A stretch of DNA of 64,000 nucleotides from a virus: IMG/VR virus record IMGVR_UViG_3300008113_000071, positions 34,434 to 98,433 of that record. One strand, 5' to 3'. How positions within the stretch are numbered: the stretch's first letter is position 1; each line of letters begins with the position of its first letter. Position numbers and translations under genes: made by a program. Below the pieces are notes generated by a model. The model was not told where the DNA came from and ran no database searches. It saw nothing but the letters and a program-made list of their open reading frames with translations. Of the stretch, positions 5,088 to 56,179 are shown one piece after another.

Positions 5088-5109
5088 CTTTTGATTAAAA
5101 TAATAAATT

Positions 5110-5337: not shown

Positions 5338-5339
5338 TA

Positions 5340-6206
5340 ATGTCAAAAACAATAGTCATAAAGTTAACAGAGTCTTCATTAAGAAGTGGACCATTTAATA
5401 TTACTGATCAATTTGGTAATGTTATAGCTATTGGTGTGTCTAGAAATGAACTCATTGCTGGTATTGCATACAGTGTTGCTGATGATGTTACATTAATTAC
5501 TATAGAATCTTTTGGTAAATGTAAAAATAAACGTACATTTGCAATAGGAACTATTATTCCAAGTGAGTTAGCTGCTGCTACATACACTCCATCAAACAAT
5601 GCATGTTTATGGACACACTTGAAAAATCCTGTATTATATAATACATTCTATGGAAACATTGAACCTTATATAATTGAATATCCTTTTTCATATCAGTTTA
5701 ATGATGAAATCTTACAGAACGTAAAAGATTATACAAAAGCATACAAGTATCTTCCTGATACTGATTTTGTATCTGATGAGTGTGATAAGATTGAAACAAA
5801 CGATAGATGGTTCAATAAAGCTGTGTTATACAATGGTCAACAATCAACTGGTATATTAGAACTAGTTCCTAAACCATTGCACAACTTAAATGCTTATTTA
5901 AAATATCCAATATATAACGCTGAGAGCAAAACTATTACATTTACTAAGAGCGATAACTTCTACCAGTACAATACATTCTGGTCAGTAATTAAAGATAGAC
6001 AAGAACCATTATTCCTAAGAAGCTGTGAATCATTATCAATCGATAAGATTGTAAATCAAGCTAATATGAACTATGGAACAATGTCCTTTAGAAAGGATCC
6101 TCTTAGAGCAAAAGATTTAAAGGTGAGACACATTCTTGACAATAGATCTGATGCACATTTAGTTAGTCAATTCATTACAACTCCTGCACAAATTTCTTAC
6201 AAATAA
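5340..6206 (+). CDS. Hypothetical structural protein
   Basis: Start chosen at the ATG at 5340, right after the previous stop (5335-5337); an upstream in-frame start would overlap the previous gene. The product has 288 residues, is soluble and mixed alpha/beta, and shows no catalytic motif that I recognise. Its stop overlaps the next start as TAATG, so translation is probably coupled. The place between a large tail-type protein and virion cargo-type proteins suggests a tail or connector component. I do not recognise the family. Confidence 0.6.
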   Translation: MSKTIVIKLTESSLRSGPFNITDQFGNVIAIGVSRNELIAGIAYSVADDVTLITIESFGKCKNKRTFAIGTIIPSELAAATYTPSNNACLWTHLKNPVLYNTFYGNIEPYIIEYPFSYQFNDEILQNVKDYTKAYKYLPDTDFVSDECDKIETNDRWFNKAVLYNGQQSTGILELVPKPLHNLNAYLKYPIYNAESKTITFTKSDNFYQYNTFWSVIKDRQEPLFLRSCESLSIDKIVNQANMNYGTMSFRKDPLRAKDLKVRHILDNRSDAHLVSQFITTPAQISYK

Positions 6207-26400: not shown

Positions 26401-26867
26401 ATATTTCTACACTTTCAAGAGAAGGATCATCTGACTTTGTTGTTTACACTTGGGAGAATAGAATTTCTAAAGCTGATAAAGCCAAAGCTAAAAGAAAAGG
26501 TGATAGATCATATATCAATAAAGGATTATTCCAAAAGGTGTATTACATTAATGAAGATGGACTGAGAGTACCATTAGTGCAAGTTTCTGAATACAACAAT
26601 AAGATTTATAAAAACTTTGTATACAAACATGTTAATGCTTGGGGTGATTCATTCAGAGCTAATGAGTTCTATAACTTTATCAGACCATCTGTATTAGATA
26701 ATGATTTTATTAAAGTGGAAGAGAAGTTTAACGATGAGACTAGTGTGAAGATTTCTTCAGCTGAGGTGGCAGATGATGTAATTGCAAACATATATCTTGC
26801 AGGAACTAAAACTGAACCAAAGATTGAAACAGGAACAGAATTGAAAACTGATGATTTTAAATGCTAA
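14430..26867 (+). CDS. Giant virion RNA polymerase polyprotein (DFDID catalytic loop)
   Basis: A 4145-residue protein. Residues 3273-3277 read DFDID, preceded at about residues 3224-3272 by GFRIPTQKQ-type sequence. The order and spacing mirror the RxPTLH...NADFDGD region of cellular beta' subunits, so this is the metal-binding loop of a double-psi beta-barrel RNA polymerase, as in the phi14:2 gp66/YonO group. The N-terminal ~450 residues contain hydrophobic Ala/Gly-rich segments (about 110-135 and 205-230) suited to membrane passage. Residues ~930-1250 are coiled coil. A degenerate HEVFE motif lies at 1901-1905. I infer that it is packaged, ejected with the DNA and transcribes early phage genes. 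It lies between two other cargo-type genes. Confidence 0.8.
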   Translation: MADNTPIPPLVDRTALEDAFGGYEPQGAPADLPNVAFRGLDKSSATAGTGEPVSILDALENSLTSMPSSVKLTGGGIPRSIAELTSSRYKAYVPGDYNNEDAYAQGQGWTEKMVNSVGKGLLLAGGTFLQGTVGLVNGVGRAAIDGRAASFYDNPENRALDDLYKWSEDFAPVFQTDAYKNLNWYSPSKLFSANFLWDGIVKNLGFAAGAYLSGGVYAAGLKALPLTARLFSVGKAAEALAATEQGLLGANKVADTFGKIKTLSDRFLTSYKLSSVGGRALVAGLSTTGEAGFEAAANLNAFRDKKIQEYVSTYGAEPDGEALAQINREAEAVGNTSFLLNVGLLTATNYIQFPKILGSSYKAERGMVNNLTKEIGELTTDEAGKYIAAPSRLGKVLGTLNKARPYIFSASEGFEEGSQYAIQIGTQDYYNKKSNNEPTTFLDSLSEGITQTLGTNEGMENVLIGGLSGAIMQARGKFSQGREITKNTAAAIEQFSKFKLSDFSKDTIDSVNRGTTIQEEREQQLKEGNVANSKDLEADYIINYLTPRIKYGRFDLVRAEIDDYRALALTDAGFAQLQAEGKALATDTKEQYLERLNGLEATANNVKSLYQSLNLRYGGMVNSKGEEIYSSDVMDKMVYAASKVADYDKRIPQLTSQLTDTSIDVMGIVDELVNDKKSDKFDAAIVELEQGKAITAEEDIQTLQDIGKLSLRRDLFLNEYSELKKSPEKFKEPEPLAETAKVPGAPVETVTIKTKDGDEDIEVGTEYFLGKVTEYSAEGSEVYRFPTLTIVGENEDGTVQIKTSTGEIRNVSKDVLADYKLGKVSDTLNNKKAKYFMDNINTMFEHYGIKDKDGKPEVGRLEYSLKKDKLVFVYKDDSGKIVRREVLNTMFKAAEGYRDAMVREIGKLTATQTESKKAFVEDTTTMSDKLRVRNQIVTDLYENSVKRVQEIEDKLTKNREKLNEIADSLDAASKTKDGKDRKRITKTLKKSINELSSLRNNIEKENNALLGEKNELEVNIPLFKNFIDELASLPEDSKEFVAQLKDDVSTFEDLIDITNDAIKSNNTLLQDIDKTLSDALSVFTDYIKRLREENPGIPLFMDELVAKLEKYQGEEGAKQFIAERLGFTDLVADLESDINDFSAELKLPELTAKADKLSNDIKELRKGLDDLVTQQIARRNILDAFEEFVEKQKQIKLEENKIQADKQLLAQFLGTMDNSVQNNPEPTKGYEAASKKPWQSVVGGTVAPGYKDAEKSFNKRANNFGFKFNSLENKDSIRGVVVTNATQDQIIPGLTEHLIGESGLDPKTVIALVMVQENKDGSYTLVDENGVAIPEGADLLNTAIFQVFPTEKLEATYDGKKESMFRETTPEYVEASLREQYTGWRENELKQTQLGQPQGITASFGIPQYVTRLNEKGIEERNYDARVSAEEAGLVDSEMLTEEPVIAVATNNTSITNGSVTFTTPLGRVFLQIPGGLAKLFNRKFNSKEANTIYDVILQLTKNAVTDGDIKTEKSQRLINWLKSTVYWGIAKNQAGERIPAGYNNVWFEEVNDEDGKPVTKLYISGKGEGFEFTPTSLEENKGEIVTLLQNMYNNTNATMVNQNAWNNPYFEITGIDSNGEPITKKWDNYQTYLLSSEGRTNEEIPLATQFKPITDTAPVNRVGIYFTLDTTVDDYVVPQSAPVVTPMEEAPKAPELPTEFFLAPKTQPEAKSVEAPKQEGFVLDGVKENTVQLGTFGAVTFTLDGKLYNETNGDKGFNPTIPASVTEAVMKAKDVTEEKAQQIIAASVIAKVAPQLESMKLPVVEPIVEFTEEENDEWNNSAPNTPDDTAYRLQLVKEAKQFDTEIWPKVEEFLRTKFPMLPIYRVKNVIQATNGRQAFGMLHNAAIYLQENAQVGTVYHEVFEAVWKMFATPEEKTALIKEFRNREGSYTDRFTGEEIKYSEATEAQLKEEIAEEYRDFELFGKAPDRSNGKSLISRLFSDIVNFFKTFFTGKNAANNTEELFKKMSSGYYAENYNPYIAPLSFANVGVIDIQDAFGGPDAEYRLETIPATQVNEIMQQMTYSTLTDLIKTDKSLFTIASVNKKELYEKLQKELLEIVRWKGSQYESAAAKGELTNEEAAREVGNLKTLYKNIKADWNDIIAKHQEYLKTYSIEFDENDNSILTDENNSGKSDYQAANKIDSFRRANSAIKILLATLPVTEVTNEGVKIKRSSIGGAVLMPSDQVFINLMNQLHDSTNVDDMFDRLRTMALGNPNYASLYKRLTKLAPSEQVDFSKLDDTGLQLVSAFWKSFKRQNADVISVFVLPEGDIVISDSTLSSAAKQSKRDMTANLINTIKGDNKYVKYDPKTFKYNALGAINNVQFTGSQLNGYTDFLKNLGIEFDIKAVRKLNDDQLKMFRKAVEGLKTSISQIEDVATLSTKTLNIDGRMLELGTIQAIIENPTFESTYFNINGERTQNFIGTNALSGLYDVLSKIDNINDLAGTEYAFLLTDVFSKGNSSVMLNKMFNIAKSGGRIKGSEEFMKPVYIDGTINEQKGKSKESSKLNYKERLIQEINLNLSGFYLNLVPGDASMEWAIKMHKEESPFVTEESYLTKDYLNIFKNYFISEVELARDGRKTVKPENSKDLRFFKAILGDALHKQIMTKANLKLSPEEVYENNKKEINAAVEEFIKNDAQDTRELLAGYGAIGYDEDGLYVENLAFGDNITEQSLNTKLQLLSVNYMIANIEMHKLVYSDPYQYSDELKRIKNFNSPRQPLVYGSKKINAAFNKQYNKGYSKDDIGYTDMNRDVFRSSVISDVFTVGSLPGYEIPFEETDGGGYISSKANRIFGIRSGEWTEDNEKQYRYDVAWEKRDKGFDLSKDEQLLLAQGNPNVRSTYTPRKPIVSGSKADGKNYNDIVLDKFALVPLSYRLLKEINADSNAIKLYEKMQRDDVDYVVYNTGRKVGAGITTPLYNEDGSFNNNPFEEINNIPFAIMGVQTEVPSKDTPLVTRGSQITKLVTLDFLEAGMPTDFEADGDFDSRFAKWITLDENKKLESSEIYKLIKENQDLLVAKTEADYQTLIKKLGIQQTVVNGKKAFVLGDVDKLIDTLRDEILKREVNENITDALNGFKQGDVVLEATPAYQQIRNILYSIADKTVVRPKISGGLKVQIPSTLLESTRVKGKEFTDKNGNVKYSYESNNLKFYTNKEGKRICEIMVGRWFKSDKTDAELLKYFNDTPEGQKVLEGIGFRIPTQKQNSIDSFVIKQFLPEEFGDSVVIPSELVRKVGSDFDIDKLSIYLKNIYVDGKGDIKAVPYFGIGEQAKAKFADMFDRGEFLTEEQVKQLDRYINEEREREFDLNSPEAKLIRDIFPEAFTDEAFAKEFIADLAKKGMKEGIVDNMYVKSLENQYIQSLQNLVSHESNFDNLIKPNSADQLKDLAKDINKKLGREEIDYSSVGNMLHRSFMSRLRQDFVSGKYAIGIAAVSQTNHAQNQRAVMYIDTDRLKTKNISEADKKWLGDGQIKLKEYNSIFAKDKKRPTLSMIKNAAGEYISDIIGQFIDGYVDISKGPWIMELGATPNVASTWLFLTKIGVPIKTTAYFMNQPIVRDYLRTVESAGYSWLFIDNFVDDMMEIYTPQEDITVTELPNEAGLGEMIGKKTSQLSNTQKAQQQLILEEFLKYAKMAEHLFQVTQGSNFDTATINDPYLVFKKQMQLKKAQNTIISSVDDILDKSFIGSLKDIIYDVRDAFSTILISDRTSDDTSKISVRDVMEAVLAPYTDLSDRDFVKVSQKAVADLFDWAVQTDTKLNNFITNALLGTDTYESAAKKVIEYRDKVLKDESHPLHDNLIINSIKLEPGSKNGKPDNLYIAGRDNKVYNQNQTIAAFRELREQLKAEGSDLYGRLVRLAVIQSGTTTSPISFTSILPYEDFKAYYNKTLSELENLPNLDEFYNLHVLERNNWNNTDIVPFKPYTLIKNKKGELFNPNMAFVAKRLVGAMNRKEIPKVINISTLSREGSSDFVVYTWENRISKADKAKAKRKGDRSYINKGLFQKVYYINEDGLRVPLVQVSEYNNKIYKNFVYKHVNAWGDSFRANEFYNFIRPSVLDNDFIKVEEKFNDETSVKISSAEVADDVIANIYLAGTKTEPKIETGTELKTDDFKC

Positions 26868-31968: not shown

Positions 31969-31976
31969 TAAATTTG
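31969..31976 (+). promoter_or_regulatory. TAnnTTTG promoter element giving a near-leaderless message
   Basis: TAAATTTG lies 6 bases before the ATG at 31983. No good TTTG box is visible 19-20 bases upstream. It follows a 57-base gap after the giant-protein genes and would start the fibre operon. Confidence 0.5.
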
Positions 31977-31982
31977 TATATT

Positions 31983-32624
31983 ATGAGAACTGCTGCTATA
32001 TGCCCCACCTGTGCCACGTATGAGAACGCTATCTGCGTCCTTTATGATGGACCCTACTTACCCTGTACAGGGATAAGTCCATTAGATTCTATTGCTGAAG
32101 CCTTAGCTAAAATTGATGCTGCTATTTGTGCACTTGGTGGAACAACCACCACTAGTACAACTAGTACAACAACAACAGCTGGACCAACAACAACCACCAC
32201 TACTACAATAGCTGGACCAACTACTACCACTACAACTAGTGTTGCACCTACAACAACAACCACTACAACAGCTGCACCTACCACAACTACTACCACCACC
32301 ACTTTAAACTGTGTGTATCCTACATTGGATGAGTTAACAACTGATGGATTTGGTAATATGACCTTAACCTATGATCTTCATGGTTCTACATGTTCAGGTG
32401 TATTTGTAGAATATTCTAGTGATCCTGCCTTTCCTGACCCTGTCTCTGGTCAAATTATTTTTAATGGTTGTAATCTAACATCATATGTGTTATATGTACC
32501 TTCTGAAACTACTCTTTATGTAAGGGTGTCTACAACATGTGGTCAACTTTCACTTATAAGTGATGCACTATCAATTATACCAGGTGTTCCTGCAACAACA
32601 ACAACCACTACTACACTTCCTTAA
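31983..32624 (+). CDS. Short fibre/bristle protein: anchor module, poly-Thr linker, C-terminal domain
   Basis: Start taken at the ATG at 31983, because the upstream in-frame TTG lies inside the promoter box. The product has 213 residues. Residues 1-52 form a Cys-containing module (C-x2-C... then V-L-Y-D-G and KIDAAI) that is clearly related to the start of the next gene. Then come about 50 residues of poly-Thr blocks separated by AGP/AAP/VAP, a beta-rich domain of about 90 residues and a last TTTTTTT tail. I infer a virion surface appendage in which the first module docks on the virion and the Thr stalk displays the head. Confidence 0.6.
   Translation: MRTAAICPTCATYENAICVLYDGPYLPCTGISPLDSIAEALAKIDAAICALGGTTTTSTTSTTTTAGPTTTTTTTIAGPTTTTTTSVAPTTTTTTTAAPTTTTTTTTLNCVYPTLDELTTDGFGNMTLTYDLHGSTCSGVFVEYSSDPAFPDPVSGQIIFNGCNLTSYVLYVPSETTLYVRVSTTCGQLSLISDALSIIPGVPATTTTTTTLP
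32140..32304 (+). repeat. Poly-threonine tract
   Basis: Four to five blocks of 6-8 threonine codons (ACA/ACT/ACC mixed), separated by AGP, VAP or AAP. A further Thr tract ends the gene at about 32593-32618. Confidence 0.85.
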
Positions 32625-32635
32625 AATATAATACC

Positions 32636-35600
32636 ATGAATGTTGGATGCTCTGCAATTCCTTGTCCTATAATATTAAATTCCACCTGCGTTATATACGA
32701 GGGTGGTAATCTTATATATACAGGAATTAATACTAACGATACTATCCAAACAGCTCTACAAAAGATAGATGCTGTTATTGGAGATATTGCTGTTGGTACC
32801 TCAGGTACTGCAGGCACTAGTGGTACCACTGGAACTTCAGGTTCTAGTGGAACAGCAGGTACATCAGGTGATGATGGTATATCTAGTGGTAGGGTTTTCT
32901 ACTTCAATGAATCTCAAGTATCTAGTGTAGCACCATATAAGGTGTTATCAACAACCCCTTCTGGAGGACCTGAACAAGTTGTTCCTGCTGTAACAAGTGG
33001 GAGCACTCCTGTTCTAGTTGCTGAATTCATAACAGAACAATTAAATGTTATTACTGTTCCTGCAGGTATACAAAGATTCTTCTTACACTTCTTAAAGAGT
33101 GCACAAACAGATATTGTTAATACATATGTAGAAATTATATTAGCTGATGTTAATGGTATTCCTATTTCTCCAGCTTTTACAACAAACGTTGCTTCTGTTG
33201 GATGGGTAGATGCTGTCACTCCTGTAGAGATTCCTGTTGATATTGTTATTCCTTCATCACCTGTATCTACATCAGATAAAGCAATTGTTAAAATATATAT
33301 TACAGATGATGTTGCTGGTGCATACAATGTTAATTTCTATACAGAAGGTGCTGCCAACTATTCATATGCTGTAACAACTATTGCTACACTGTCAGGAACT
33401 AGTGGCACATCAGGAAGCTCTGGCACTTCTGGTATAGCAGGAACTAGTGGTACCTCTGGTATTGCTGGTACTTCTGGGACATCAGGTATTGCTGGCACCT
33501 CAGGTACTTCTGGTATAAATGGTACAAGTGGAATCAATGGAACCTCTGGGTCTTCAGGCACTGGAGGTACAGATGGTACTAGTGGTTCTTCAGGATCATC
33601 AGGTACAAGTTCTACAGGTGGTACTTCTGGTACAAATGGAACAGGAGGAACTAGTGGTACTGATGGTAGCAATGGTACATCAGGAAGTTCAGGAACTGCA
33701 GGTTCACATGGTACTTCTGGTACTAGCTCAACAGGTGGTACTAGTGGAACTTCAGGCACAACTGGAACCAGTGGTACTGATGGAACCAGTGGAACTACAG
33801 GTACTAGTGGAACGAGTGGTTTAGATGGTACAAGTGGATCTGATGGATCTAATGGTACCTCAGGCAGCAGTGGAACTGATGGCACTTCTGGAACAGATGG
33901 TTCAAGTGGTACAAGTGGAACTGCAGGTAGCAATGGAACTAGTGGCACTGATGGTACATCAGGCACAAGTGCTCTTGATGGCACAAATGGAACTAGTGGT
34001 ACAACAGGAACTAGTGGAACAGCTGGATCAGGTGGTACATCTGGCTCCTCTGGAACAAGTGGTACATCAGGTTCTACTGGTGACTTATATGCTACAACAT
34101 CCTCTACATCTTATACATTACAAGCAGCAGGTAATCCTGGAACTATAACAGTAGGACTAGGACTTGCATATACTCCTGCTCAATCTATTATTATTGCATA
34201 CAATGCTTTAAATCACAATGAAGCAATTGTAACATCATATAATGCAGGCACTGGAAGTTTAAGCTTCACTACAACTTCATTAACAGGATCTGGAACTTAC
34301 ACAGCATGGGATGTCAATCTTGATGGTGCTACAGGGGGTGATGGATCAAGTGGAACCTCTGGAACCACAGGAACATCTGGCTCTAGTGGTGTAAGTGGAA
34401 CTTCTGGCACTACAGGTACTTCTGGTACAACAGGTAGTTCAGGAACTTCAGTAACTGTATCAGGAACTAATAATACTGTTGTTAAATTCACAAGTGCATC
34501 CACTATTGGTAATTCAAATATTACTGATACAGGTACACTTATTTCATTAGGTTCTAATACAACTATTTCAAGTGGAGCATTAGGTATAGGTACGAGTGCA
34601 TTAACTGATACTGCTTTAAGGGTAGGGAAAGGAATAACTGGTAGCACTACACCTGCTGGTATTCAAGTTACTTCTGCAATACAAAATGATGCTACTTCAA
34701 GTGCGATAATTTTTCAATCAACTCCATCACAAGCTGCTGGTGGAACACTTACAACATTATATCATTTTGCTGCAAGTCAATCTACACTTAGTGGAACTGT
34801 AACTACACAAATAGGTTATCAGGTATTTGCAAGTGTTAGTGGTGCTACAAACAATCGTGCTTTTCAAGGTCAATTAGCTGCTGCTGCAAATACACATAAC
34901 TTGTATATGTCAGGTACAGCTGATAACTATGTGGCAGGTGCTTTGGGTATAGGTACTACATCTTTAACAGGTTATAGTTTAAGAGTAGCTAAAACTCTAA
35001 CAGGTGCTACTACAGCTTATGGTATTCTTAATTCAGGACAAATACAATCTGATGTTACTGCAAATGCTATTTATAATAGAACATTAGCTTCTACTGCTGC
35101 TGCTTCATTTACATTAGCAAATCTATATCATTATTTTGCAGACCAAAGCACATTTGGTGCAGGTTCATCTGTTACAAATCAATTTGGATTTTATGTAGAT
35201 AGTGGATTAACAGGTGCAACTAATGATTATGGTTTTTATGGCAACTTAGCATCTTCTGCAAATGTTTGGAACTTGTACATGAATGGCACTGCATCTAATT
35301 ATCTAAGTGGTGTTTTAACTATTGGTACAAACTCTCCAAATGCATCTGCAAAACTACAAGTAGATAGTACAACAAGTGGTTTCTTGCCACCAAGAATGAC
35401 AGAAGCACAAAAGAATGCTATAGCTTCTCCTGCCACTGGATTAATAATTTATCAAACAGATGCTAGTGCAGGTCCTTATTACTATAATGGTTCAGCTTGG
35501 ATTCAAAATGTATCAGGTACATCAGGTACCTCAGGAGTAAATGGGACTTCTGGAACTTCTGGTACCACAGGTACAAGTGGCACAACTGGAACCAGTGGTA

Positions 35601-36973
35601 CTACAGGAACCTCAGGGACCTCTGGTATCAATGGTACATCTGGCACTAGTGGAATAAATGGTACAAGTGGTACAACAGGCACAAGTGGGACTAGTGGTGT
35701 AAATGGCACTAGTGGAACATCAGGAATCAATGGTACTTCTGGAGTTAATGGAACCTCAGGAACTAGTGGGGTGAATGGTACTAGTGGAGTGAATGGAACA
35801 TCAGGATCTTCTGGTATTAATGGCACTAATGGAACTTCTGGAATCAATGGTACGTCAGGTATAAATGGTACAAATGGAACCAGTGGTATTAATGGTACTA
35901 ATGGAACGTCAGGAATTAATGGAACCAATGGTACTTCTGGTATCAATGGAACAAGTGGTACTAATGGAACAGGTGGTACAAGTGGTACCTCTGTAACTGT
36001 ATCAGGTACAACAAACTATGTTGTTAAGTTTACAAGTGCTTCTACAATTGGTAACTCAAATATTACAGACAGTGGAACACTTGTTAGTTCTGCTGTAAAT
36101 ACAAGTATAACAGGAAGTTTACAAGCTGGAGATGCTTCAGTATTAGGTGCTGTTTCTTTTGGAGATACCCCCACCACAATCATAGGCAAAACTACAGGAG
36201 CTATATTAGATTTAAGAAATACTAATACAGTAATTGCTGCAGGAGATTTAGCAGGTAGTATTCAATACACTGTTAAAGATGATACAACAGCAGGGTATTG
36301 TGTATCAAAAATAGATACAATAACATTAGCTGCAGCAGGTACTGGTAATAGTGGTGGTGGTATTATGAGATTCTTCACTAATCCAGGAGGAATGAGTGCA
36401 GTTCCACTTGAGAGAATGCGTATTACAGCAGCTGGTAATATTCAGATTGGTTCTGCAACTGGTTTCTTTGTAGCCTCTAAATTACAAGTTACTGGAGACA
36501 TATGTGTAAGCTCTGGAAGTAGAATTTTACTTGATTCCTCTGCTAGTACATTAAGTATAAAGAGTAGTACATCAGGAGCTGGTGGTGATATGGAATTTTA
36601 CACTGGTGGTAGTTCTTCAACTAGTATTCGTGTAAAAATTGCTGCTGATGGTGCTGTAGCTATATACAATACATTTAATAGACAAACTGCTTCTTATACA
36701 CTTGTTCTTGGAGATGCTGGTAAAATAGTTGAGATGAATGTTGCAGGAGCTAACAATTTAACTGTACCTTTGAACTCAAGCGTTGCATTCACTATTGGAA
36801 CTGAAATTCAAGTATTACAATATGGTGCAGGTCAAACTACTATTGTAGCTACTGGTGGTGTAACATTGAGGAGTAAGTCAGGTCAATTAAAAATTGGTAA
36901 CCAATACACAGGTGTAACGCTTGTTAAAGTTGGTACTGACGAATGGTATGTAATTGGTAATTTAACTGCATAA
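32636..36973 (+). CDS. Collagen-like (Gly-Thr-Ser) tail fibre
   Basis: A 1445-residue protein. Its first ~50 residues match the N-terminal module of the previous gene (Cys pair, V-I-Y-E-G, TGI, KIDAVI). Long Gly-x-y runs follow, mostly GTS, at residues ~55-80, 252-480, 567-606 and 960-1120. Between them are beta-rich domains, including two tandem copies of a ~120-residue module (about 34578-34940 and 34941-35310). A GFLPPRMT...GLIIYQTD stretch near 35380-35460 is of a kind common in Bacteroidota phage fibres. The C-terminal ~110 residues resemble a fibre tip. The likely role is receptor binding. The Thr/Ser-rich Gly-x-y runs are good candidates for glycosylation by the neighbouring transferase. 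Confidence 0.85.
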   Translation: MNVGCSAIPCPIILNSTCVIYEGGNLIYTGINTNDTIQTALQKIDAVIGDIAVGTSGTAGTSGTTGTSGSSGTAGTSGDDGISSGRVFYFNESQVSSVAPYKVLSTTPSGGPEQVVPAVTSGSTPVLVAEFITEQLNVITVPAGIQRFFLHFLKSAQTDIVNTYVEIILADVNGIPISPAFTTNVASVGWVDAVTPVEIPVDIVIPSSPVSTSDKAIVKIYITDDVAGAYNVNFYTEGAANYSYAVTTIATLSGTSGTSGSSGTSGIAGTSGTSGIAGTSGTSGIAGTSGTSGINGTSGINGTSGSSGTGGTDGTSGSSGSSGTSSTGGTSGTNGTGGTSGTDGSNGTSGSSGTAGSHGTSGTSSTGGTSGTSGTTGTSGTDGTSGTTGTSGTSGLDGTSGSDGSNGTSGSSGTDGTSGTDGSSGTSGTAGSNGTSGTDGTSGTSALDGTNGTSGTTGTSGTAGSGGTSGSSGTSGTSGSTGDLYATTSSTSYTLQAAGNPGTITVGLGLAYTPAQSIIIAYNALNHNEAIVTSYNAGTGSLSFTTTSLTGSGTYTAWDVNLDGATGGDGSSGTSGTTGTSGSSGVSGTSGTTGTSGTTGSSGTSVTVSGTNNTVVKFTSASTIGNSNITDTGTLISLGSNTTISSGALGIGTSALTDTALRVGKGITGSTTPAGIQVTSAIQNDATSSAIIFQSTPSQAAGGTLTTLYHFAASQSTLSGTVTTQIGYQVFASVSGATNNRAFQGQLAAAANTHNLYMSGTADNYVAGALGIGTTSLTGYSLRVAKTLTGATTAYGILNSGQIQSDVTANAIYNRTLASTAAASFTLANLYHYFADQSTFGAGSSVTNQFGFYVDSGLTGATNDYGFYGNLASSANVWNLYMNGTASNYLSGVLTIGTNSPNASAKLQVDSTTSGFLPPRMTEAQKNAIASPATGLIIYQTDASAGPYYYNGSAWIQNVSGTSGTSGVNGTSGTSGTTGTSGTTGTSGTTGTSGTSGINGTSGTSGINGTSGTTGTSGTSGVNGTSGTSGINGTSGVNGTSGTSGVNGTSGVNGTSGSSGINGTNGTSGINGTSGINGTNGTSGINGTNGTSGINGTNGTSGINGTSGTNGTGGTSGTSVTVSGTTNYVVKFTSASTIGNSNITDSGTLVSSAVNTSITGSLQAGDASVLGAVSFGDTPTTIIGKTTGAILDLRNTNTVIAAGDLAGSIQYTVKDDTTAGYCVSKIDTITLAAAGTGNSGGGIMRFFTNPGGMSAVPLERMRITAAGNIQIGSATGFFVASKLQVTGDICVSSGSRILLDSSASTLSIKSSTSGAGGDMEFYTGGSSSTSIRVKIAADGAVAIYNTFNRQTASYTLVLGDAGKIVEMNVAGANNLTVPLNSSVAFTIGTEIQVLQYGAGQTTIVATGGVTLRSKSGQLKIGNQYTGVTLVKVGTDEWYVIGNLTA
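33391..34080 (+). repeat. Collagen-like Gly-x-y repeat region (main block)
   Basis: About 230 residues with glycine at nearly every third position and Thr-Ser filling most x-y positions, with Ile-Ala, Ile-Asn and Asp-Gly variants. Codons vary freely (GGT/GGA/GGC, AGT/TCA/TCT, ACT/ACA/ACC), so the DNA is far less repetitive than the protein. Further blocks lie at 32799-32878, 34333-34450 and 35512-35990. Confidence 0.9.
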
Positions 36974-36976
36974 TAT

Positions 36977-37351
36977 ATGGGACATCTATTATCTTCAGCA
37001 ATCAAAATGAGTGCTTCGTCTGGAATACCTACTGGAGTTTTTACTGTTATATATAACGAATTACCAACAATAGCAGGTGCGAGTGTTATTCCATTAAAAA
37101 ATGGTTCAGTTTATTTATCAAGAGTATCTACAGGTACATCTACAGGTACTATAACAACAGGAGATACATTTTCTGCAACTTTACCTTCTCCAAGTGGACC
37201 ATATAGATATTTATCAATAGTAAGTTCGTCAAGAGGTACATTATTTTATGGTGAATTTGAACCTGGAATGAGTGGAACAATATCATCCCCTACATTTACA
37301 AAAGTAGATAATGAAGATATTACCATAAATGGATTTGTTGACTTTACATAA
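36977..37351 (+). CDS. Fibre-associated hypothetical protein
   Basis: A 124-residue, Thr/Ser/Gly-rich, beta-predicted protein starting 3 bases after the collagen-like fibre gene. It has no signal peptide or membrane segment. Placement suggests a fibre cap, chaperone or accessory domain. I do not recognise the family. Confidence 0.55.
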   Translation: MGHLLSSAIKMSASSGIPTGVFTVIYNELPTIAGASVIPLKNGSVYLSRVSTGTSTGTITTGDTFSATLPSPSGPYRYLSIVSSSRGTLFYGEFEPGMSGTISSPTFTKVDNEDITINGFVDFT

Positions 37352-37383: not shown

Positions 37384-39483
37384 TTAACCTATCATTTCAG
37401 AATTAATTTTATCTATAACCATTTGTGATGTAATACTAGTCTGACATTCAAATTGTCTATCAGTTCCTTTATTAACAGGACACCAATTCCAATCTCCCCT
37501 ATCAAACTTATACTGAGGATCATTCCAACATCCATGACATACACTTGTGTTCGTCACTCTAATGCATTCAAACTCGTGATCTGCTTGAGTAAAATTGCTT
37601 ATCATCACAACTTCTTTTCTAAGTGCCCAAGCTAACCAGCTTAACCCACTAGATAAGCCTACAAAGAACTTACTATAATAGATAAGGTTCATTGTATTCT
37701 CTATCGACTTATCCTCTGGCACTAGACAGTTATCAAATGGGTTATCCTCTAATGATACATTCACTATCTTATATCCTTTCTTGTGATAATGATTGATTAA
37801 CTCCTGCCACGACTCTCTTGTCCAGAACTTACATCCTGCAGTTGAATTGGTGGCTATGGTGATGTAATTATCGTATGGCCTCTTACTTGGACTGAAACTG
37901 ATTCTAGGAACGACTTCCCGATATTGGAGTCCCAAAATGTTTGTGGCTGCTTTCTGTAATGGAATAGTGTTAGGTAGCTCTGGTTCCTTATTGCTATCAT
38001 AGAACCATCCTAAAGTGTACATACCCATAATGTTCTGCACATTAGTTCCTGGTTCTACAAACTCTAATTCTGGATACACATCCTGGAATAAGTTATTCCT
38101 GAAGGTAGATACTATTACATGGCAATTGTGTTTCTGCTTGAACTCCAAACAATAAGGTATCCACGCTATTGTGTCTCCCAAGGACTTGCTGTCAAACGCA
38201 ATGTATACACGCTTTCCTGTGTAGTCTAACGTGCTTTCATACACAAGCTCATCATTCTCTCTTACAGTTACATTCCATTTGGTGTAATAGCTCCTGTTGA
38301 GTCTCACCCAACTGTTACACGCAATATTGTTCTGGTAATGTAGCTCTCCAGACTCATCATAAAACCTCACATTAAAAATGCTTTCTGAGCTCCCTTTGAT
38401 TTCTAAGAAGGGTTGTCCTACGCAATAGTTGGTGATTGTTATAGGCTGCTTGTATGGTGCAGCTTTGCACACAGCTCTGTACATTTCGTCATGCAATTTT
38501 GCAAATTCCTCTTCTTGCCCTTCAGGTATTTCATATTGCATAGGTTCATCAAGAGCTTTTATTAATTGAGCCTTTAGATTGTTTTCGTCTATTGGTGTAA
38601 TGTATTCATCAAACATTCCACAGTATTGTGGTAGGTTGCGTGCTAATATTTTACAGCCATAACTAACAGCTTCTCTAACAACAAGAGGATTACATTCCCA
38701 TGTGCTATTGAACATGAATACATCTGAAGCTAACATAAACTTCCACGCATCCTCTCTCTCTCCCCACACCTTACAATTAGCTGGTAGGTCTGCCATGATT
38801 GGTTCCCAATATTCTTGGAAGTTAACAGCTTGGTTTCCTACAAAATGGAATTGTACATCAGGCATTCTTCTAGCTATTTCTACAGCTTCTTTCTGATTCT
38901 TTCCTGGTGTCCATAGTCCAACGTTTACAACATGTTCTTTGGCTTCATCAAATTCTAATTCTGTAAATGCATCCTGCCAATTATATGTCTGACGTTTGTC
39001 TTCAATTGGAAACTCCAATACATATTTAGGAGATTGCATGTTAGCAAATGTCTGCAAATGATATGGTGTACAGAAAGCATATGCATCTGGATGATAACGT
39101 TTGCTCTGGTCTGGATTAAACCAAACATTGTGACAGGTTTCTACTATTCTCCAAGTTCTGTCTGGTGCATACAAAGCTCTCATCAGCTCCTCAGGAACTT
39201 GATTGTGGCTATCGAATCCTTCAATCATTTCATCAACATGCACAACATCAATATGCAAATCTTGAATGACATCTATTAACATCATCTTGTCTGTTCCAAG
39301 TGTAATCACTTGTGTTAGCTTGTTAATCTTGTTCTTCTGAACAACATACTCAGAGCTATAGTTCTTGAACTCCACTACATATACATCAGCATCTGTGTAC
39401 TTCTGTAGTGTCTCAATTCTCTTTAGTAAAAATGCAGGCATCCCTCCTGTCGAAAGATGTGGGGCTAAGAATAGTATTTTCAT
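37384..39483 (-). CDS. Bifunctional glycosyltransferase: GT4-like domain fused to Aah/TibC-like O-heptosyltransferase
   Basis: Start set at the ATG at 39481-39483 (699 residues). It begins MKILFLAPHLSTGG, typical of GT-B enzymes, and lies 5 bases after a promoter box. Residues 1-380 look GT4-like, with an NVGLWTPGKNQ motif followed by a W-E-C-N-P-L-V-V-R-E-A segment. Residues from about 445 begin KRVYIAFDSKSLGDTIAW, as in heptosyltransferases (GT9-like). The tail has Cys649, Cys652, Cys668 and Cys680 in a CHGCWND...DWNWCP...FEC context, the hallmark of autotransporter O-heptosyltransferases (Aah/TibC), which bind iron there and modify Ser residues. I infer protein O-glycosylation with extension by the first domain. 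It lies on the opposite strand directly after the Thr/Ser-rich fibre genes. Confidence 0.8.
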   Translation of the reverse strand: MKILFLAPHLSTGGMPAFLLKRIETLQKYTDADVYVVEFKNYSSEYVVQKNKINKLTQVITLGTDKMMLIDVIQDLHIDVVHVDEMIEGFDSHNQVPEELMRALYAPDRTWRIVETCHNVWFNPDQSKRYHPDAYAFCTPYHLQTFANMQSPKYVLEFPIEDKRQTYNWQDAFTELEFDEAKEHVVNVGLWTPGKNQKEAVEIARRMPDVQFHFVGNQAVNFQEYWEPIMADLPANCKVWGEREDAWKFMLASDVFMFNSTWECNPLVVREAVSYGCKILARNLPQYCGMFDEYITPIDENNLKAQLIKALDEPMQYEIPEGQEEEFAKLHDEMYRAVCKAAPYKQPITITNYCVGQPFLEIKGSSESIFNVRFYDESGELHYQNNIACNSWVRLNRSYYTKWNVTVRENDELVYESTLDYTGKRVYIAFDSKSLGDTIAWIPYCLEFKQKHNCHVIVSTFRNNLFQDVYPELEFVEPGTNVQNIMGMYTLGWFYDSNKEPELPNTIPLQKAATNILGLQYREVVPRISFSPSKRPYDNYITIATNSTAGCKFWTRESWQELINHYHKKGYKIVNVSLEDNPFDNCLVPEDKSIENTMNLIYYSKFFVGLSSGLSWLAWALRKEVVMISNFTQADHEFECIRVTNTSVCHGCWNDPQYKFDRGDWNWCPVNKGTDRQFECQTSITSQMVIDKINSEMIG

Positions 39484-39488
39484 ATAGA

Positions 39489-39519
39489 CAAATGTAAAAA
39501 AACATTTGCAAATCTCAAA
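39489..39519 (-). promoter_or_regulatory. Bacteroidota-type promoter for the glycosyltransferase
   Basis: Read on the minus strand: TTTG (39516-39519), a 19-base spacer, then TACATTTG (39489-39496), a full match to the consensus. The start codon at 39481-39483 is only 5 bases further, so the message should be leaderless or nearly so. Confidence 0.8.
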
Positions 39520-39536
39520 ACTATTAATTACATTTG
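39505..39536 (+). promoter_or_regulatory. Divergent Bacteroidota-type promoter for the envelope cassette
   Basis: TTTG at 39505-39508, a 20-base spacer, then TACATTTG at 39529-39536. It interleaves with the minus-strand promoter at 39489-39519. The first clear gene downstream starts at 39649, leaving a leader of about 105 bases. Confidence 0.7.
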
Positions 39537-39648
39537 TATGCAGAACTGACCACAGGTACAACCAACTACCTAACGCTACTAGTTCTTTGTAGCAATAGTT
39601 CATGTATTATTATTGTAATTATAATTTTTTTCTTAGAATTAATAGCAA

Positions 39649-41207: not shown

Positions 41208-42938
41208 ATGAGAAAACTGTACATCATGTTAGCTTTTGTCTTATTAGGCATGAGCTCTTTCGCACAAACACTAAAGTTTAAAATTACAGAAGCTGAGACA
41301 CGCACTAATGTTAATGGGAGTCCTATTAATAAAGGTGATGAGTTCGAGATTTCTATCTGGGTTAATCCAAATGGAAACACCACCACACGTTCATTGTATT
41401 TTGATTTCGAATATCAGAATACAGCATTTGATTTGATGAGTGTTAATCACACTGGTACAAATGGAAATGGTGGAGCTCTTCCAACTGGCTCAAGTATATC
41501 TATGAACTATCAGGACTATCCTGGATACTCATGGTTATCTACACAACAGAACAGCAGTGTAGATGGTAATGTTAAATATAACAATGCTAACTATACTTAT
41601 ACTCCAGGAGGACCTAAGTCTATCCTTCGTGTATATCTAAACTGGGCTACCAACAATACTAACTTTGCTGAGTGGCATTTAATTAAACTACGTTTTAAAT
41701 TAAAAACAGATGCTCCTGGCTACACTTGGGATCCTATCAAGTTTAACTTCGTTGCTGCATTCAACCAAAATGGAACAAGTGGTTCTACAATCATGGAGAT
41801 TCCTGAAACTACAATCATCTATTTGGATCCTGTAGCTACGTCATATATCAATGGTACAATAGAACTAAATAGCAACTTGCAAGCTATTTCACCTATCAAG
41901 GTGGCATTCGTTGATAGTGCTCTTAACCAGGGACCAATATTTGATGTTGCATCTAATGGTAAGATAAATATTGACCAATCACAACTGAAAGCTAACACTA
42001 CATATAAGGTGATGGCTATGGTTAATATGGATAAGCTGTATGATATATACAATGCTGGTGTTACAGTGAGTGATTATACCACAGCAGAAGGTGAGTTCAT
42101 TACACAGAACCTTGATGGTACATTCAAAAATAGTAACATCAAAACTGGTATGGGCTATTTTGCAGCTGATATTAATCGTAACAAAAAATTAGATGGGGGG
42201 GACCTTACAAAATTGTTCTCTCAGACTGTTAGTGTAGATCAATTAGTTCTTCTTCCATCACAATACACTCCTGGTTCTGGTGGACATATGAGTGTAATGA
42301 CACTTGAGAAGAGTGTATTCAATGGTCTTGATACAGAGAGCTGGAAAACTGCACTACCACATGTATTGTTTAGAACAGGAAATATTGGTACTAACCTACC
42401 ACTAGATCTTAAGTATGCATTAATTGGTGACATTAATAGATCACATAGCTCACAAGTTGTGGATGCTCAAGGAGTTATTAAGGTGAATAGTTTCATCAAT
42501 ACACCAAACCCAATACAAGGAATCAATGTATCCTTAAATAACTTAGTAATCACATCAAACGATATCGAAATCCCAATAGCTCTATCAACAGGAAACATTT
42601 CTATTAGTGGATTACAGTTTGAGTTTATATATGATGCTACTAAGATAAAGTTTGATCAACTATTAAGCTCACTACCTAATGGTTGGGTGGTATTTGGTAC
42701 TCCTGTGAATGGTAAGATTAAGTTTGGAGCTGTTGATAAAGAATTAAAGGTTCCTGTAAATGGTGACATAGTTCCATTCAAACTGAAGTTCACTTCTTTA
42801 GTTCCTGGTGTGGACCTTGCTACACAAGTTAAGGTTGGATCTATTATGGATGCATCAGATAACAAAGGAAAACAAGTTGGTATCAATTTAAACACTACAA
42901 CAATTAAATTAACTGGTTACAACAAATTTAACAACTAA
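41208..42938 (+). CDS. Secreted cohesin/dockerin-like protein
   Basis: A 576-residue protein with a signal peptide (about 1-20). Residues ~22-200 and ~440-570 have the beta-sandwich layout of cohesin-like domains, the second clearly so, with an ISGLQFEFIYDATKIKF strand pair. Two calcium-loop-like segments are visible: D321-I-N-R-N-K-K-L-D329-G-G-D332 and D408-I-N-R-S-H-S. They resemble dockerin half-sites but lie about 87 residues apart instead of about 24. A run of seven G (42195-42201) codes part of the first loop. It would be exported to the periplasm or surface and bind protein or glycan partners. Such a gene is unexpected in a phage. Confidence 0.6.
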   Translation: MRKLYIMLAFVLLGMSSFAQTLKFKITEAETRTNVNGSPINKGDEFEISIWVNPNGNTTTRSLYFDFEYQNTAFDLMSVNHTGTNGNGGALPTGSSISMNYQDYPGYSWLSTQQNSSVDGNVKYNNANYTYTPGGPKSILRVYLNWATNNTNFAEWHLIKLRFKLKTDAPGYTWDPIKFNFVAAFNQNGTSGSTIMEIPETTIIYLDPVATSYINGTIELNSNLQAISPIKVAFVDSALNQGPIFDVASNGKINIDQSQLKANTTYKVMAMVNMDKLYDIYNAGVTVSDYTTAEGEFITQNLDGTFKNSNIKTGMGYFAADINRNKKLDGGDLTKLFSQTVSVDQLVLLPSQYTPGSGGHMSVMTLEKSVFNGLDTESWKTALPHVLFRTGNIGTNLPLDLKYALIGDINRSHSSQVVDAQGVIKVNSFINTPNPIQGINVSLNNLVITSNDIEIPIALSTGNISISGLQFEFIYDATKIKFDQLLSSLPNGWVVFGTPVNGKIKFGAVDKELKVPVNGDIVPFKLKFTSLVPGVDLATQVKVGSIMDASDNKGKQVGINLNTTTIKLTGYNKFNN

Positions 42939-49407: not shown

Positions 49408-49629
49408 ATGGCAAATGGTAATAACAGTCGTCCTTTAAAAGCTTATGTGCGTTTTGATGGATCAGGACGTGTAGTAGCTGGTAGCTTAATCTTGAGAAAG
49501 AATAAGCCAAAGGTTGGTAAATGGCAAGAAATTAATGCATATGAATGCTGCAATTATATCCCTACTACTACTACAACTACTACAGCAGCTCCCACCACCA
49601 CCACCACTACTACTACAGTAGGGGGTTAA
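49408..49629 (+). CDS. Mini-protein: LKAYVR anchor plus bare poly-Thr tail
   Basis: A 73-residue protein. Residues 1-50 form a small beta module (MANGNN, LKAYVRFDGSGRVV, then ECCNY). A TTTTTTT-AAP-TTTTTTTT tail follows and the protein ends in VGG. The first 50 residues closely match the next gene. There is no head domain, so it looks like an anchor with a naked Thr stalk. The ~95 bases upstream contain no clear TAnnTTTG box. Confidence 0.65.
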   Translation: MANGNNSRPLKAYVRFDGSGRVVAGSLILRKNKPKVGKWQEINAYECCNYIPTTTTTTTAAPTTTTTTTTVGG

Positions 49630-53171: not shown

Positions 53172-53861
53172 ATGAAAAAAATAATTAAAAAATCTTCTGT
53201 TAAAAAAATGCAAACAGGAGGAAAACTTTCTAAAGCAGAGTTATCTGCATTAGCTCATCAGAAACGAGGAAAGGGAGATATTGATTTTAATAGTGGTTAT
53301 GTTAAAAGTTCTGATCCAATCATGAATAGAACAGGTTTCTTAACAGCAGATCAAAGAAAACAACTTAAAGAATATATGAATAAGTCTTCTATTGGTGAGA
53401 AAGTGTATCAATCTCTTCCTAATGTTGGTAGAATGTTTGGTGAAGGTAAAAGTGCTGCAGATCTTCCTAAAGGTTCTAAATTAAAACAAAAAATGGGTGG
53501 TGTTACTAAGAAAGCTAAATCTGGTGGTTCATTCCCTGACTTAAACAAAGATGGTAAAATCACTAAAGCTGACATCCTTAAAGGTCGTGGTGTGATTGCT
53601 AAAAAAGGTGCTACATTAAAGAAACAAGCTGCTGTAGCAATTGCTATGAAGAAAGCTGGTAAAACTCCTAAAGCTCAAACTGGAAATAATATTAAAGTAA
53701 ATCCTCCAGCTGGTTACACAAAAGGAAGTGGTTATAAATCTTTTGGTAAATCTGGTGTATCAGTAAAGAAAATGCAATATGGTGGTGCTGCTGCATCTAT
53801 GGTTCCTCCTATGATGAAAAAAGGTGGTGCTACAAAGAAATGCAAATATGGCTGCAAGTAA
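53172..53861 (+). CDS. Lys-rich protein with KKMQxGG motifs and an EF-hand-like loop
   Basis: A 229-residue basic protein. It carries VKKMQTGG (about residue 12), PKAQTG (about 169) and VKKMQYGG (about 198), and ends with a Cys-containing KKCKYGCK. Between them, at about residues 121-132, D-L-N-K-D-G-K-I-T-K-A-D fits a calcium-binding EF-hand or dockerin-type loop. I infer a virion-internal basic protein; the calcium site may be structural. It overlaps the next gene by 14 bases. Confidence 0.6.
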   Translation: MKKIIKKSSVKKMQTGGKLSKAELSALAHQKRGKGDIDFNSGYVKSSDPIMNRTGFLTADQRKQLKEYMNKSSIGEKVYQSLPNVGRMFGEGKSAADLPKGSKLKQKMGGVTKKAKSGGSFPDLNKDGKITKADILKGRGVIAKKGATLKKQAAVAIAMKKAGKTPKAQTGNNIKVNPPAGYTKGSGYKSFGKSGVSVKKMQYGGAAASMVPPMMKKGGATKKCKYGCK

Positions 53862-54021: not shown

Positions 54022-54137
54022 TGTGTTCTTGGAAAAGAACCAAACGTTATAGAGATTTGATGTTTGCATTCTGGCTAATTAAAAATAAGAGATTAGTTAG
54101 TTCTTTTAAAGAAGCTATAAAAAAAGCCCAAGATTAA
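54018..54137 (+). CDS. Tiny hypothetical protein
   Basis: A 39-residue basic protein starting at ATGATG (54018) in overlap with the previous stop. Its last codons form one arm of a bidirectional terminator. It is the last plus-strand gene before the convergent minus-strand block. It is real only if the coupled start is used. Confidence 0.4.
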   Translation: MMCSWKRTKRYRDLMFAFWLIKNKRLVSSFKEAIKKAQD

Positions 54138-54155
54138 TTTCTCTGGGCTTTTTTT
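54119..54155. terminator. Bidirectional terminator between convergent operons
   Basis: AAAAAAAGCCCA (54119-54130) and TGGGCTTTTTTT (54144-54155) form a 12-base stem with a 13-base loop and T runs on both strands. It overlaps the 3' ends of the coding regions on both strands. Confidence 0.85.
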
Positions 54156-54712
54156 ATTACAAGCATTTTTCCACCATGCTTTTGTTCAACGCTCTCTATT
54201 TCAAAGTTGTTTTGAGTTATAATATTACTAACCTCTGGTATAGTGAATTGTGCATTTGAATACACACTGTGTAAATCTTCAATTATATAATACCCACCTG
54301 GATTAAGATGTGGAAATAGATGTTTGAAACTTGTAAGGATGTGTTCTGAGTAGTGTGAACCATCATCTAATATGATATCAAATTCTCCTCCATAGGTATT
54401 AATACACCTTTGTATATCCTCAGGATTGTTTTGATTACCAATGAATATGTTTATGTTTGGTTCTTCAAACTGTTTAGCTTGTTGATTAATATCATACCCA
54501 ACAAAAAATAAGTTTGGAAAATAATCCCTCCACATCTTTACACCAGCTCCTGGAAATCTTGGATCAGCTACACCAATCTCAAGCATTCTAATACTCTTAT
54601 CGACTAACTCTTCAAAGTATTCATTATATGTAGGAGTGTAGTTGTGACACCATGATTCAAAGTTACCTTTGTCTGTGCCCCATTTATTTGCTAACAGCGT
54701 CAATTTGTCCAT
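54134..54712 (-). CDS. Class I SAM-dependent methyltransferase
   Basis: A 192-residue protein. LEIGVAD (44-50) is the SAM-binding glycine loop, D74 in GYDIN a likely ribose-binding acid, and D112-I-I-L-D-D-G-S-H the following strand. The LANKWGTDKG start and MWRDYFP string are typical of the small-molecule or sugar O-methyltransferases related to macrocin/TylF-type enzymes. Placed directly after two glycosyltransferases (29-base overlap with the GT2 gene), it may methylate a sugar of the same glycan. Confidence 0.75.
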   Translation of the reverse strand: MDKLTLLANKWGTDKGNFESWCHNYTPTYNEYFEELVDKSIRMLEIGVADPRFPGAGVKMWRDYFPNLFFVGYDINQQAKQFEEPNINIFIGNQNNPEDIQRCINTYGGEFDIILDDGSHYSEHILTSFKHLFPHLNPGGYYIIEDLHSVYSNAQFTIPEVSNIITQNNFEIESVEQKHGGKMLVIKKAQRN

Positions 54713-55385
54713 AATAATCTTCTTTAAAATGTGGTTTAAGTTCTATCACTCCTGTTGTATTATCTAATATTCTATCAGCCTGTGCTAATACAACATCATT
54801 AGGTTGTACACCCATACCAGATATGTGTAAGGTTTGCATTCCCCATCTATATAACATTGTATGATTTAATTTAGACTCATAGATATTACCATTGTGTCCA
54901 AAGGTAATGTCTGCATCTTCTGTTCCTGATAGATCAGGGAATTTAATCCTGTCTAAATAGGCTTTGGTGTATACATTACCATTGTTAATATTGCTACTCT
55001 CGCTCTCAAACTTATTGTTCACAAAGAAATAGAATCCTTTGCTTCTATAAATTTCATGTCCTGGGTTGTTTGTAATATCAGAATAAACATTATCAAGAGC
55101 CCATGAAGCAAGTAAGTCATCATCATCTAATCGATAGATGTAATCATGTTTACATTGTTTATATCCCCACTCAAGCTTAGCAGCAATAGAAGGGAATCGT
55201 TCTTTGTGGTTAATAATTCTAACTTGTGGATGATCAAATACATAATCAACCTCAACGTTATCATTAATGATAACCATTTCTGTTGGTTCATCTTTAGGAA
55301 TTTTGTTTTCCTGTCTAAGAAAAGACTCAATCGCTTCTTCTAGAAGATGATGTCTTTTGTATGTTATTGTTAATACTGAAATCAT
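54684..55385 (-). CDS. GT2-family glycosyltransferase
   Basis: A 233-residue protein. It opens ISVLTITYKRHHLLEEAIESFL, with R-L-D-D-D-D (85-90) as the metal/nucleotide-sugar site, so it is a GT-A fold, family 2 enzyme. It overlaps the fucosyltransferase-like gene by 4 bases and the methyltransferase by 29, forming a three-gene sugar cassette. The target could be virion protein glycans or the host surface. Confidence 0.8.
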   Translation of the reverse strand: MISVLTITYKRHHLLEEAIESFLRQENKIPKDEPTEMVIINDNVEVDYVFDHPQVRIINHKERFPSIAAKLEWGYKQCKHDYIYRLDDDDLLASWALDNVYSDITNNPGHEIYRSKGFYFFVNNKFESESSNINNGNVYTKAYLDRIKFPDLSGTEDADITFGHNGNIYESKLNHTMLYRWGMQTLHISGMGVQPNDVVLAQADRILDNTTGVIELKPHFKEDYYGQIDAVSK

Positions 55386-56179
55386 GATGGTATTATAAAT
55401 CCATTTTCAAATCTTGTTGGTAATACTATCCAGTCCTTACAGTACATAGTATTCCATTTATGTGGGCACTCTGGACCAAACCAAGTTTCTGGAGCTACAA
55501 CAATCTTTCCAGGGTTTCTAGATAGATATGCAGCCCACCAACTAAAGGATGAATTAGAGATCACATAATGATGGCATAATGATAAGATCCATAACTGTTC
55601 ATGACTTTTATACCCCTCTAGGTAAGTTACATTAGGTAGTTGTAGATTCTCTTTACACCAAGGAATATCATCACTAGCAATTAGATAGTGTTCACTAGGA
55701 ATAAGTTCTAATGCTTTGTAAATGTATTGTGGTGTAACTGTAGGGTGGTAGTTAGGATAGTGAAGGTAATCACCTCTGCGTACATTGATAACTGTCACCT
55801 TCTTTTCAAAGATGACAGGTATCTCAGCACGAATCCTATTGATAAAGTCTAATGGTGCACCAAATAAGCTTTTGATGTTCTCACTATATTTATCAAAATA
55901 CTGTTCACTCTGGTAATATCCAAAGTAAACAGTGTGTTTATCATCTGATGGAACAGAACGATTGTAGTTCTTATTATCATCAAATGTATCTATAAACTCT
56001 AGTTTGCTACATATGTTTGTTGAATAATCATTTCCCTCATAGGCAAGTTGTGACTTGCAAACAACCACTTGTTTGTTAAACTCAAGACCCTTGGCATAGG
56101 CATGAGCTATCATGAAGAGATTGTTTCCAAGTCTACCACCTAATGAGGGAATAATATAATCAATGTTTAACATTACCAA
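55382..56179 (-). CDS. GT11-like (alpha-1,2-fucosyltransferase family) glycosyltransferase
   Basis: A 265-residue protein with GGRLGNNLF (14-22), V-R-R-G-D-Y (133-138) and ISNSSFSWWAAYL (about 210-222), the three marks of family GT11. Members move fucose from GDP-fucose to galactose. The start could be Met1 or Met3; the gene overlaps the GroES-like gene by 7 bases. It forms a cassette with the GT2 enzyme and methyltransferase. Confidence 0.8.
   Translation of the reverse strand: MVMLNIDYIIPSLGGRLGNNLFMIAHAYAKGLEFNKQVVVCKSQLAYEGNDYSTNICSKLEFIDTFDDNKNYNRSVPSDDKHTVYFGYYQSEQYFDKYSENIKSLFGAPLDFINRIRAEIPVIFEKKVTVINVRRGDYLHYPNYHPTVTPQYIYKALELIPSEHYLIASDDIPWCKENLQLPNVTYLEGYKSHEQLWILSLCHHYVISNSSFSWWAAYLSRNPGKIVVAPETWFGPECPHKWNTMYCKDWIVLPTRFENGFIIPS

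Follow-up and report, generated by a model that had tools for sequence, protein, structure and literature searches.

Why would a phage carry an enzyme of the kind that bacteria use to place heptose on autotransporters, and on what would it act? The question is raised by a gene in the IMG/VR virus record IMGVR_UViG_3300008113_000071 (98,433 bp), from which we analyzed a stretch of 64,000 nucleotides (positions 34434-98433 of the record), here called the window. The gene lies on the minus strand at 37384-39483 and encodes a GT4-like glycosyltransferase domain fused to a domain of the TibC type, and close to it is the gene for a collagen-like fiber. By its Crassvirus major capsid protein (PF23898, 105.3 bits, E 3.5e-30) and P22-like portal (PF16510, 39 bits), the source is a crAss-like phage (Crassvirales). 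The explanation we favor, and consider probable, is that the fusion is a bifunctional protein O-glycosyltransferase that would prime Ser/Thr residues on the phage's own collagen-like fiber, with the fused GT4 domain extending the glycan.

The open reading frame (ORF) runs from 37384 to 39603 and could encode 739 aa. Homology backs a start at 39483, which gives 699 aa, and the coordinates in the original prediction, made from the sequence alone, were correct. Residues 370-694 score well above the TIGR04414 cut-off (261.9 bits versus 200), and the C-terminal domain matches the TibC chains in the PDB by sequence at E 7e-49. The N-terminal part is GT4-like, with 41.4 bits against PF00534 (cut-off 26.4). 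An AlphaFold2 model of the whole fusion reached a predicted local distance difference test score (pLDDT) of 84.8 and a predicted template-modeling score (pTM) of 0.61. When this model was searched with Foldseek, the top PDB match was TibC (4RAP, E 4e-28, template-modeling score 0.81 by target length), followed by the GT4 enzymes MshA, BshA, PimA, and PglA. A TibC-type domain behind a GT4-like one, as originally read, is thus borne out by both profile search and predicted structure, the two checks that had been proposed for the C-terminal part.

Relatives are encoded by 33 IMG/VR contigs, most of them across the full fusion length. An assembly artifact is excluded by the recurrence of the full-length fusion, at 56-69% identity, in approximately 30 viral contigs. 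In phage relatives, the GT4-TibC core often has additional domains on its N-terminal side. For example, one phage polypeptide of 1914 aa (L025:4428-10169) combines FkbM, a sugar-binding glycosyltransferase, a methyltransferase, a pyruvyltransferase, GT4, and TibC. The TibC domain is also present in phage records LR756501 (735 kb) and LR756504 (636 kb), and a domain of this type occurs in the cultured Microcystis phage Mel-JY01. On contig G022, the TibC domain stands alone as a 367-aa protein, encoded in one run with a GT9 gene and two genes of the GT4-like type next to a collagen-like fiber; this arrangement supports joint function of the domains where they are fused. Separate neighboring genes take the place of the fused domains in relative L219, and with their help we infer that a single polypeptide could both prime and extend. 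In Mel-JY01 (L038, PP395634), the gene concerned (4750-8430) is annotated as "methyltransferase FkbM", its C-terminal part being TibC-type, and the upstream-but-one gene is annotated as a structural protein.

In TibC, the catalytic base is D110, the sugar is contacted by T226, K230, R286, and W305, and iron is held by cysteines 339, 342, 358, and 370 (PMC4358343). The equivalents of the base and of the cysteines are conserved in the fusion, and T548, K552, and W616 align with Thr-226, Lys-230, and Trp-305; none of the three varies among 25 phage relatives. The four cysteines are exactly those that had been named at the outset (C649, C652, C668, and C680), and they form an iron-finger motif with putative iron binding. 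S611 stands at the position of TibC P300, which bears on stereoselectivity, and AAH also has Ser there. Both active sites appear intact, while neither the oligomer contact nor the donor pocket looks like that of TibC. Arg-286, a donor contact required for TibC activity (PMC4358343), is replaced by Thr throughout the phage group. Heptose is plausible, but with the donor pocket changed in this way it should not be assumed, and the earlier naming of it as the sugar is not sustained. The second difference concerns the beta-hairpin thumb, of which residues F265 and V266 are required for the TibC dodecamer, the active form (PMC4358343). The corresponding segment has 21 residues versus 31 in TibC and lacks the WNxIPxG motif, and the AlphaFold2 model has no hairpin there.

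The candidate substrate is a fiber with approximately 150 Gly-X-Y triplets, in which X is mostly Thr and Y mostly Ser. Thr or Ser fills 225 of the 298 X and Y positions, and Pro fills none. The repeat and the PF01391 match are those of collagen, and the fiber may form a triple helix. The fusion gene is convergent with the fiber gene, and although both this Gly-Thr-Ser fiber and a poly-Thr protein do lie beside it, as had been noted, a 124-aa ORF stands between the fiber gene and the fusion gene. No autotransporter domain was found among the scanned neighbors of the fusion gene.

The Thr/Ser-rich fiber had been proposed as a likely substrate from its position, and the genomic association proved much stronger than adjacency alone. 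Contigs of crAss-like phages, sampled through either the capsid protein or the gene upstream of the fiber, were scored for a TIGR04414 match and the presence of Gly-[ST]-[ST]-like tracts. Since fragments can lack both features and so inflate an association, contigs with neither needed both flanking markers, and only contigs with both markers entered the counts. Enzyme and tract occurred together in nine contigs, 13 had neither, and none was discordant (simple Fisher p 2e-6, with genomes that are related and not independent). The capsid tree implies at least six changes of the trait. Three enzyme-bearing contigs with one flank missing (G010, G063, and G067) also have tracts. Among contigs scored without a TibC domain, G003 and G023, which have a tract, end within or near the fiber, the tract of G064 is near the contig end, and G024 ends inside a gene with a fusion-like start; in G062, approximately 7 kb in which no TibC domain was found come after the tract (65.4-66.7 kb). 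Tracts were present in 14/16 enzyme-bearing records, including LR756501 and Mel-JY01 (they were not seen in LR756504 and one fragment), and in most enzyme-bearing large phages. For the converse, 21 contigs (60 kb or longer) were selected solely by a run of such triplets, and 14 of these encode a TibC-type domain (13 above the cut-off).

The same pairing extends to cellular genomes. A scan of a genome collection with a phage-only alignment retrieved nothing, and a mixed alignment succeeded, yielding 80 loci, most of them bacterial and two titled as archaeal metagenome-assembled genomes (MAGs). The thumb is present in 64 of the 80 loci, all 64 with the WNxIPxG motif, and is missing from the other 16. 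The motif was sought in the phage versions and was absent from all, including L343, L350, and L351, which have a thumb segment of similar length. In a tree built with the thumb columns excluded, all thumbless and all phage sequences form one clade and the thumbed sequences the other, each with a support of 100 in the Shimodaira-Hasegawa-like approximate likelihood ratio test (SH-aLRT). TIGR04414 therefore consists of two clades, and the phage fusion falls in the thumbless one, along with every other phage version and the stand-alone genes of bacteria. A Gly-[ST]-X tract lies within 5 kb of 12/16 thumbless loci versus 0/64 thumbed loci (Fisher 3e-11). In nine gammaproteobacterial genomes of the thumbless type (2.3-6.1 Mb), tracts are almost limited to the enzyme locus, the exception being G072, where most are approximately 12 kb from the enzyme, apparently on the same contig. 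Across seven genomes of the thumbed type, a tract match occurred in one only, and this was a GTT simple repeat. The tract proteins beside bacterial thumbless enzymes are small and often lipoprotein-like, and several score above the PF01391 threshold. These data suggest that the thumbless branch pairs with Thr/Ser-rich Gly-X-Y proteins, not with autotransporters. We lean, with somewhat less assurance than for the fiber itself, toward regarding this clade as a distinct class of collagen O-glycosyltransferases found in crAss-like phages, very large phages, a cyanophage, and free-living Gammaproteobacteria, with the phage polypeptides of up to 1914 aa serving as an assembly line for sugar-coated collagen-like fibers.

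Three further observations concern members of the family. Phage-like TibC fusions occur on contigs from cellular MAGs of Rickettsiaceae, Thermoplasmatales, and Nitrosotalea (L058, L059, and L099), and these contigs may be of viral origin. On a plasmid of Burkholderia savannae (L042), a gene annotated as TIGR04414 has Glu in place of D110 and Ala in place of K230 and adjoins a YadA-like adhesin; its product is possibly inactive or altered. Directly upstream of the bacterial thumbless enzyme, a DUF6502 gene was confirmed by PF20112 in L064, and L067 and L069 show a similar start.

The clade split bears directly on the simplest alternative, namely that the phage has borrowed an autotransporter-type heptosyltransferase, which would transfer heptose from ADP-heptose (adenosine diphosphate heptose) to a beta-helix or repeat protein, as Aah and TibC do. 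The profile score above the cut-off, the conserved catalytic base and iron finger, and the Ser shared with AAH all speak for it. We nevertheless judge it unlikely, as the phage enzymes fall in a clade apart from every thumbed enzyme, none of them has the thumb, Arg-286 is replaced, and no autotransporter is adjacent. The original assignment to the Aah/TibC class consequently stands as regards fold, family, and catalytic residues, and it does not stand as regards the autotransporter-linked branch.

Phage glycosyltransferases are known to alter host serotype (PMC12619734), and the enzyme might likewise modify a surface glycan or other target of the host, for superinfection exclusion or a serotype-type conversion. 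The link to the fiber would then reflect a co-inherited host-range cassette, and fiber and glycosyltransferase do co-vary among close relatives. This is distinctly improbable in view of the bacterial chromosomes, where the same type of enzyme adjoins collagen-like lipoproteins that are not of phage origin and almost no tract occurs elsewhere; known relatives with a TibC domain also modify proteins (PMC4358343).

A protein target other than the Gly-X-Y tract, namely one or more poly-Thr, mucin-like proteins as the main substrate, appears very doubtful. One such protein is encoded near the fusion gene, and Thr-rich stretches are typical O-glycan acceptors. However, poly-Thr also occurs in the window genes at 3741-4868 and 49564 and in the enzyme-free L047, L053, and L057, and it is missing around many enzyme genes; unlike Gly-X-Y, it therefore does not follow the enzyme. 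Poly-Thr had been tried as a tracking feature and was dropped for its presence in enzyme-free relatives and its absence around many enzyme genes. Within the window, such tracts lie in at least three different genes (3741-4868, 32220-32303, and 49564-49617, plus strand). DNA glycosylation, with modified bases of the phage's own genome receiving the sugar, is extremely improbable: DNA-modifying phage glycosyltransferases are common (PMC12619734), but the TibC-type fold and family belong to enzymes that modify proteins (PMC4358343), and the enzyme associates with protein tracts, bacterial genomes included.

If the fusion does glycosylate the phage's own fiber, as we favor, the TibC-type domain would, during infection, move a sugar from a host nucleotide donor onto Ser/Thr residues of the fiber's (Gly-Thr-Ser)n tracts. 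This transfer would be cytoplasmic and would probably precede trimer assembly or coincide with it. A second sugar would then come from the fused GT4 domain, other phage or host enzymes may complete the glycan, and the decorated fiber would be incorporated into the virion. A likely benefit is stabilization or shielding of collagen-like shafts that have no proline. Glycosylation of the collagen-like BclA is thought to improve its hydration network (PMC8968730), and with tracts lacking proline, stabilization is a reasonable guess.

Several points weigh against this explanation. The glycosyltransferase activity is predicted from the protein and its fold, and the fiber is assigned as putative substrate entirely by genomic association. 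Independent pairs are few, with only three contrasts on well-supported branches of the capsid tree. The 636-kb phage LR756504 has the enzyme domain without a tract, four thumbless genome loci (L059, L060, L066, and L071) are also without one, and in 7/21 tract-bearing contigs the TibC domain was not seen, although IMG/VR records may be fragments. The exchange of Arg-286 for Thr, which weakens the claim for heptose, could weaken activity as well. Moreover, the active dodecamer of TibC depends on the thumb, so an enzyme without one must assemble differently. Finally, the enzyme and fiber genes may be inherited as one cassette even if the fiber is not what the enzyme modifies.

Several known systems resemble parts of the proposal. 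With TibC and Aah (TIGR04414; PDB 4RAP and 4RB4; PMC4358343), the phage enzyme shares the fold, the catalytic Asp, the Thr-226, Lys-230, and Trp-305 equivalents, the four-Cys finger, and a hidden Markov model score above the cut-off. It differs in lacking the thumb, in the Thr at Arg-286, in its separate clade, and in being fused to GT4, often with additional domains, and a collagen-like fiber replaces the adjacent autotransporter. A similar gene arrangement is known from Clostridioides difficile, where the glycosyltransferase gene sgtA adjoins the gene for the collagen-like BclA3, and SgtA glycosylates Thr (also Ser) in the Gly-X-Y repeats of that protein (PMC7157674). SgtA, however, has 358 aa with an N-terminal glycosyltransferase domain, uses uridine diphosphate N-acetylglucosamine (UDP-GlcNAc), and acts on Gly-Pro-Thr triplets in a spore coat (PMC7157674), whereas the phage fiber has Gly-Thr-Ser. 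As TibC acts on protein hydroxyls and SgtA modifies Thr/Ser in Gly-X-Y repeats, the proposed chemistry has precedent. Mimivirus, a giant amoeba virus, likewise encodes collagen-like proteins together with enzymes that glycosylate them (L230 and R699), but these modify hydroxylysine with UDP-glucose as donor and are related to animal enzymes (PMC9546862).

Sugar on the virion is not itself without precedent, contrary to what had been supposed for phages. For Che8 and other mycobacteriophages of cluster F1, phage glycosyltransferases have been linked with glycosylated virion proteins (Freeman et al. 2023, cited in PMC11256854 and PMC12619734). There, the sugars are on the C-termini of capsid and tail-tube proteins and not on collagen-like fibers, and the available portions of these sources report no TibC-type enzyme. 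Phage virion glycosylation and a glycosyltransferase adjoining a collagen-like protein are thus already known, while the thumbless enzyme class and its pairing with collagen-like tracts appear to be new. A search of open-access text found no literature in which TibC-type enzymes are connected with phages or with collagen-like proteins.

Other features of the window are collected in the table below. The second glycan cluster comprises a methyltransferase (PF13578, sub-threshold), a GT2 enzyme (PF00535), and a GT11 fucosyltransferase-like enzyme (PF01531, E 2e-27), and it may supply later steps that finish the fiber glycan. Family searches with the 124-aa ORF gave no match, and a sigma-70 promoter scan around the fusion gene found no excess over shuffles. 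A cohesin-like product (41208-42938, plus strand; near-threshold, 22.9 bits against a cut-off of 24.1) and a dockerin-like one (53172-53861, plus strand; sub-threshold, 17.4 against 22.9) are a possible phage cohesin-dockerin-like pair. The window also has an ORF of 4145 aa at 14430-26867 on the plus strand.

Coordinates of the fusion gene, its domains and key residues, and neighboring features within the window
Feature	Position	Strand	Remarks
GT4-TibC fusion glycosyltransferase gene	37384..39483	-	699 aa from ATG at 39483; ORF and translation, family and PDB matches
N-terminal GT4-type domain (GT-B, presumably retaining), residues ~1-345	38449..39483	-	PF00534; Foldseek
EX7E motif of GT4 domain, E263-E271	38671..38697	-	neither Glu varies among 25 phage proteins
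C-terminal TibC-type domain, residues ~349-694	37402..38439	-	TIGR04414; Foldseek 4rap
D437, equivalent of TibC catalytic base D110	38173..38175	-	alignment; invariant
Residues 576-593, expected site of TibC beta-hairpin thumb, shortened	37705..37758	-	alignment and model
T597, where TibC has sugar-binding R286	37693..37695	-	alignment; Thr invariant in 25 nearest phage proteins
Four-Cys iron finger (putative iron binding), C649, C652, C668, C680	37444..37539	-	aligned with TibC C339/C342/C358/C370; invariant
Collagen-like fiber, proposed substrate, 1445 aa	32636..36973	+	PF01391 Collagen 178 bits, 6 stretches
Main Gly-X-Y block 1, fiber residues 254-484	33395..34087	+	
Gly-X-Y block 2, fiber residues 961-1119, 53 uninterrupted triplets	35516..35992	+	
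124-aa ORF between fiber and glycosyltransferase gene	36977..37351	+	L001-L003 have homologues (MGHLLSSAIKM) in the corresponding position
Poly-Thr (mucin-like) protein, possible second substrate	31974..32624	+	ORF call; poly-Thr does not track enzyme
Second glycan cluster	54134..56179	-	methyltransferase, GT2, GT11 fucosyltransferase-like

If the proposed role is correct, these enzymes would give a genetic and structural handle on the modification of proline-free collagen-like proteins in bacteria and viruses, and this could be tested with the isolated Microcystis phage Mel-JY01 and with the stand-alone bacterial enzymes. A large annotated family would split by substrate, and many genes now called "autotransporter heptosyltransferase" would need renaming. 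It would also suggest that sugar-coated fibers are widespread in aquatic phages, with a bearing on host binding and virion stability.
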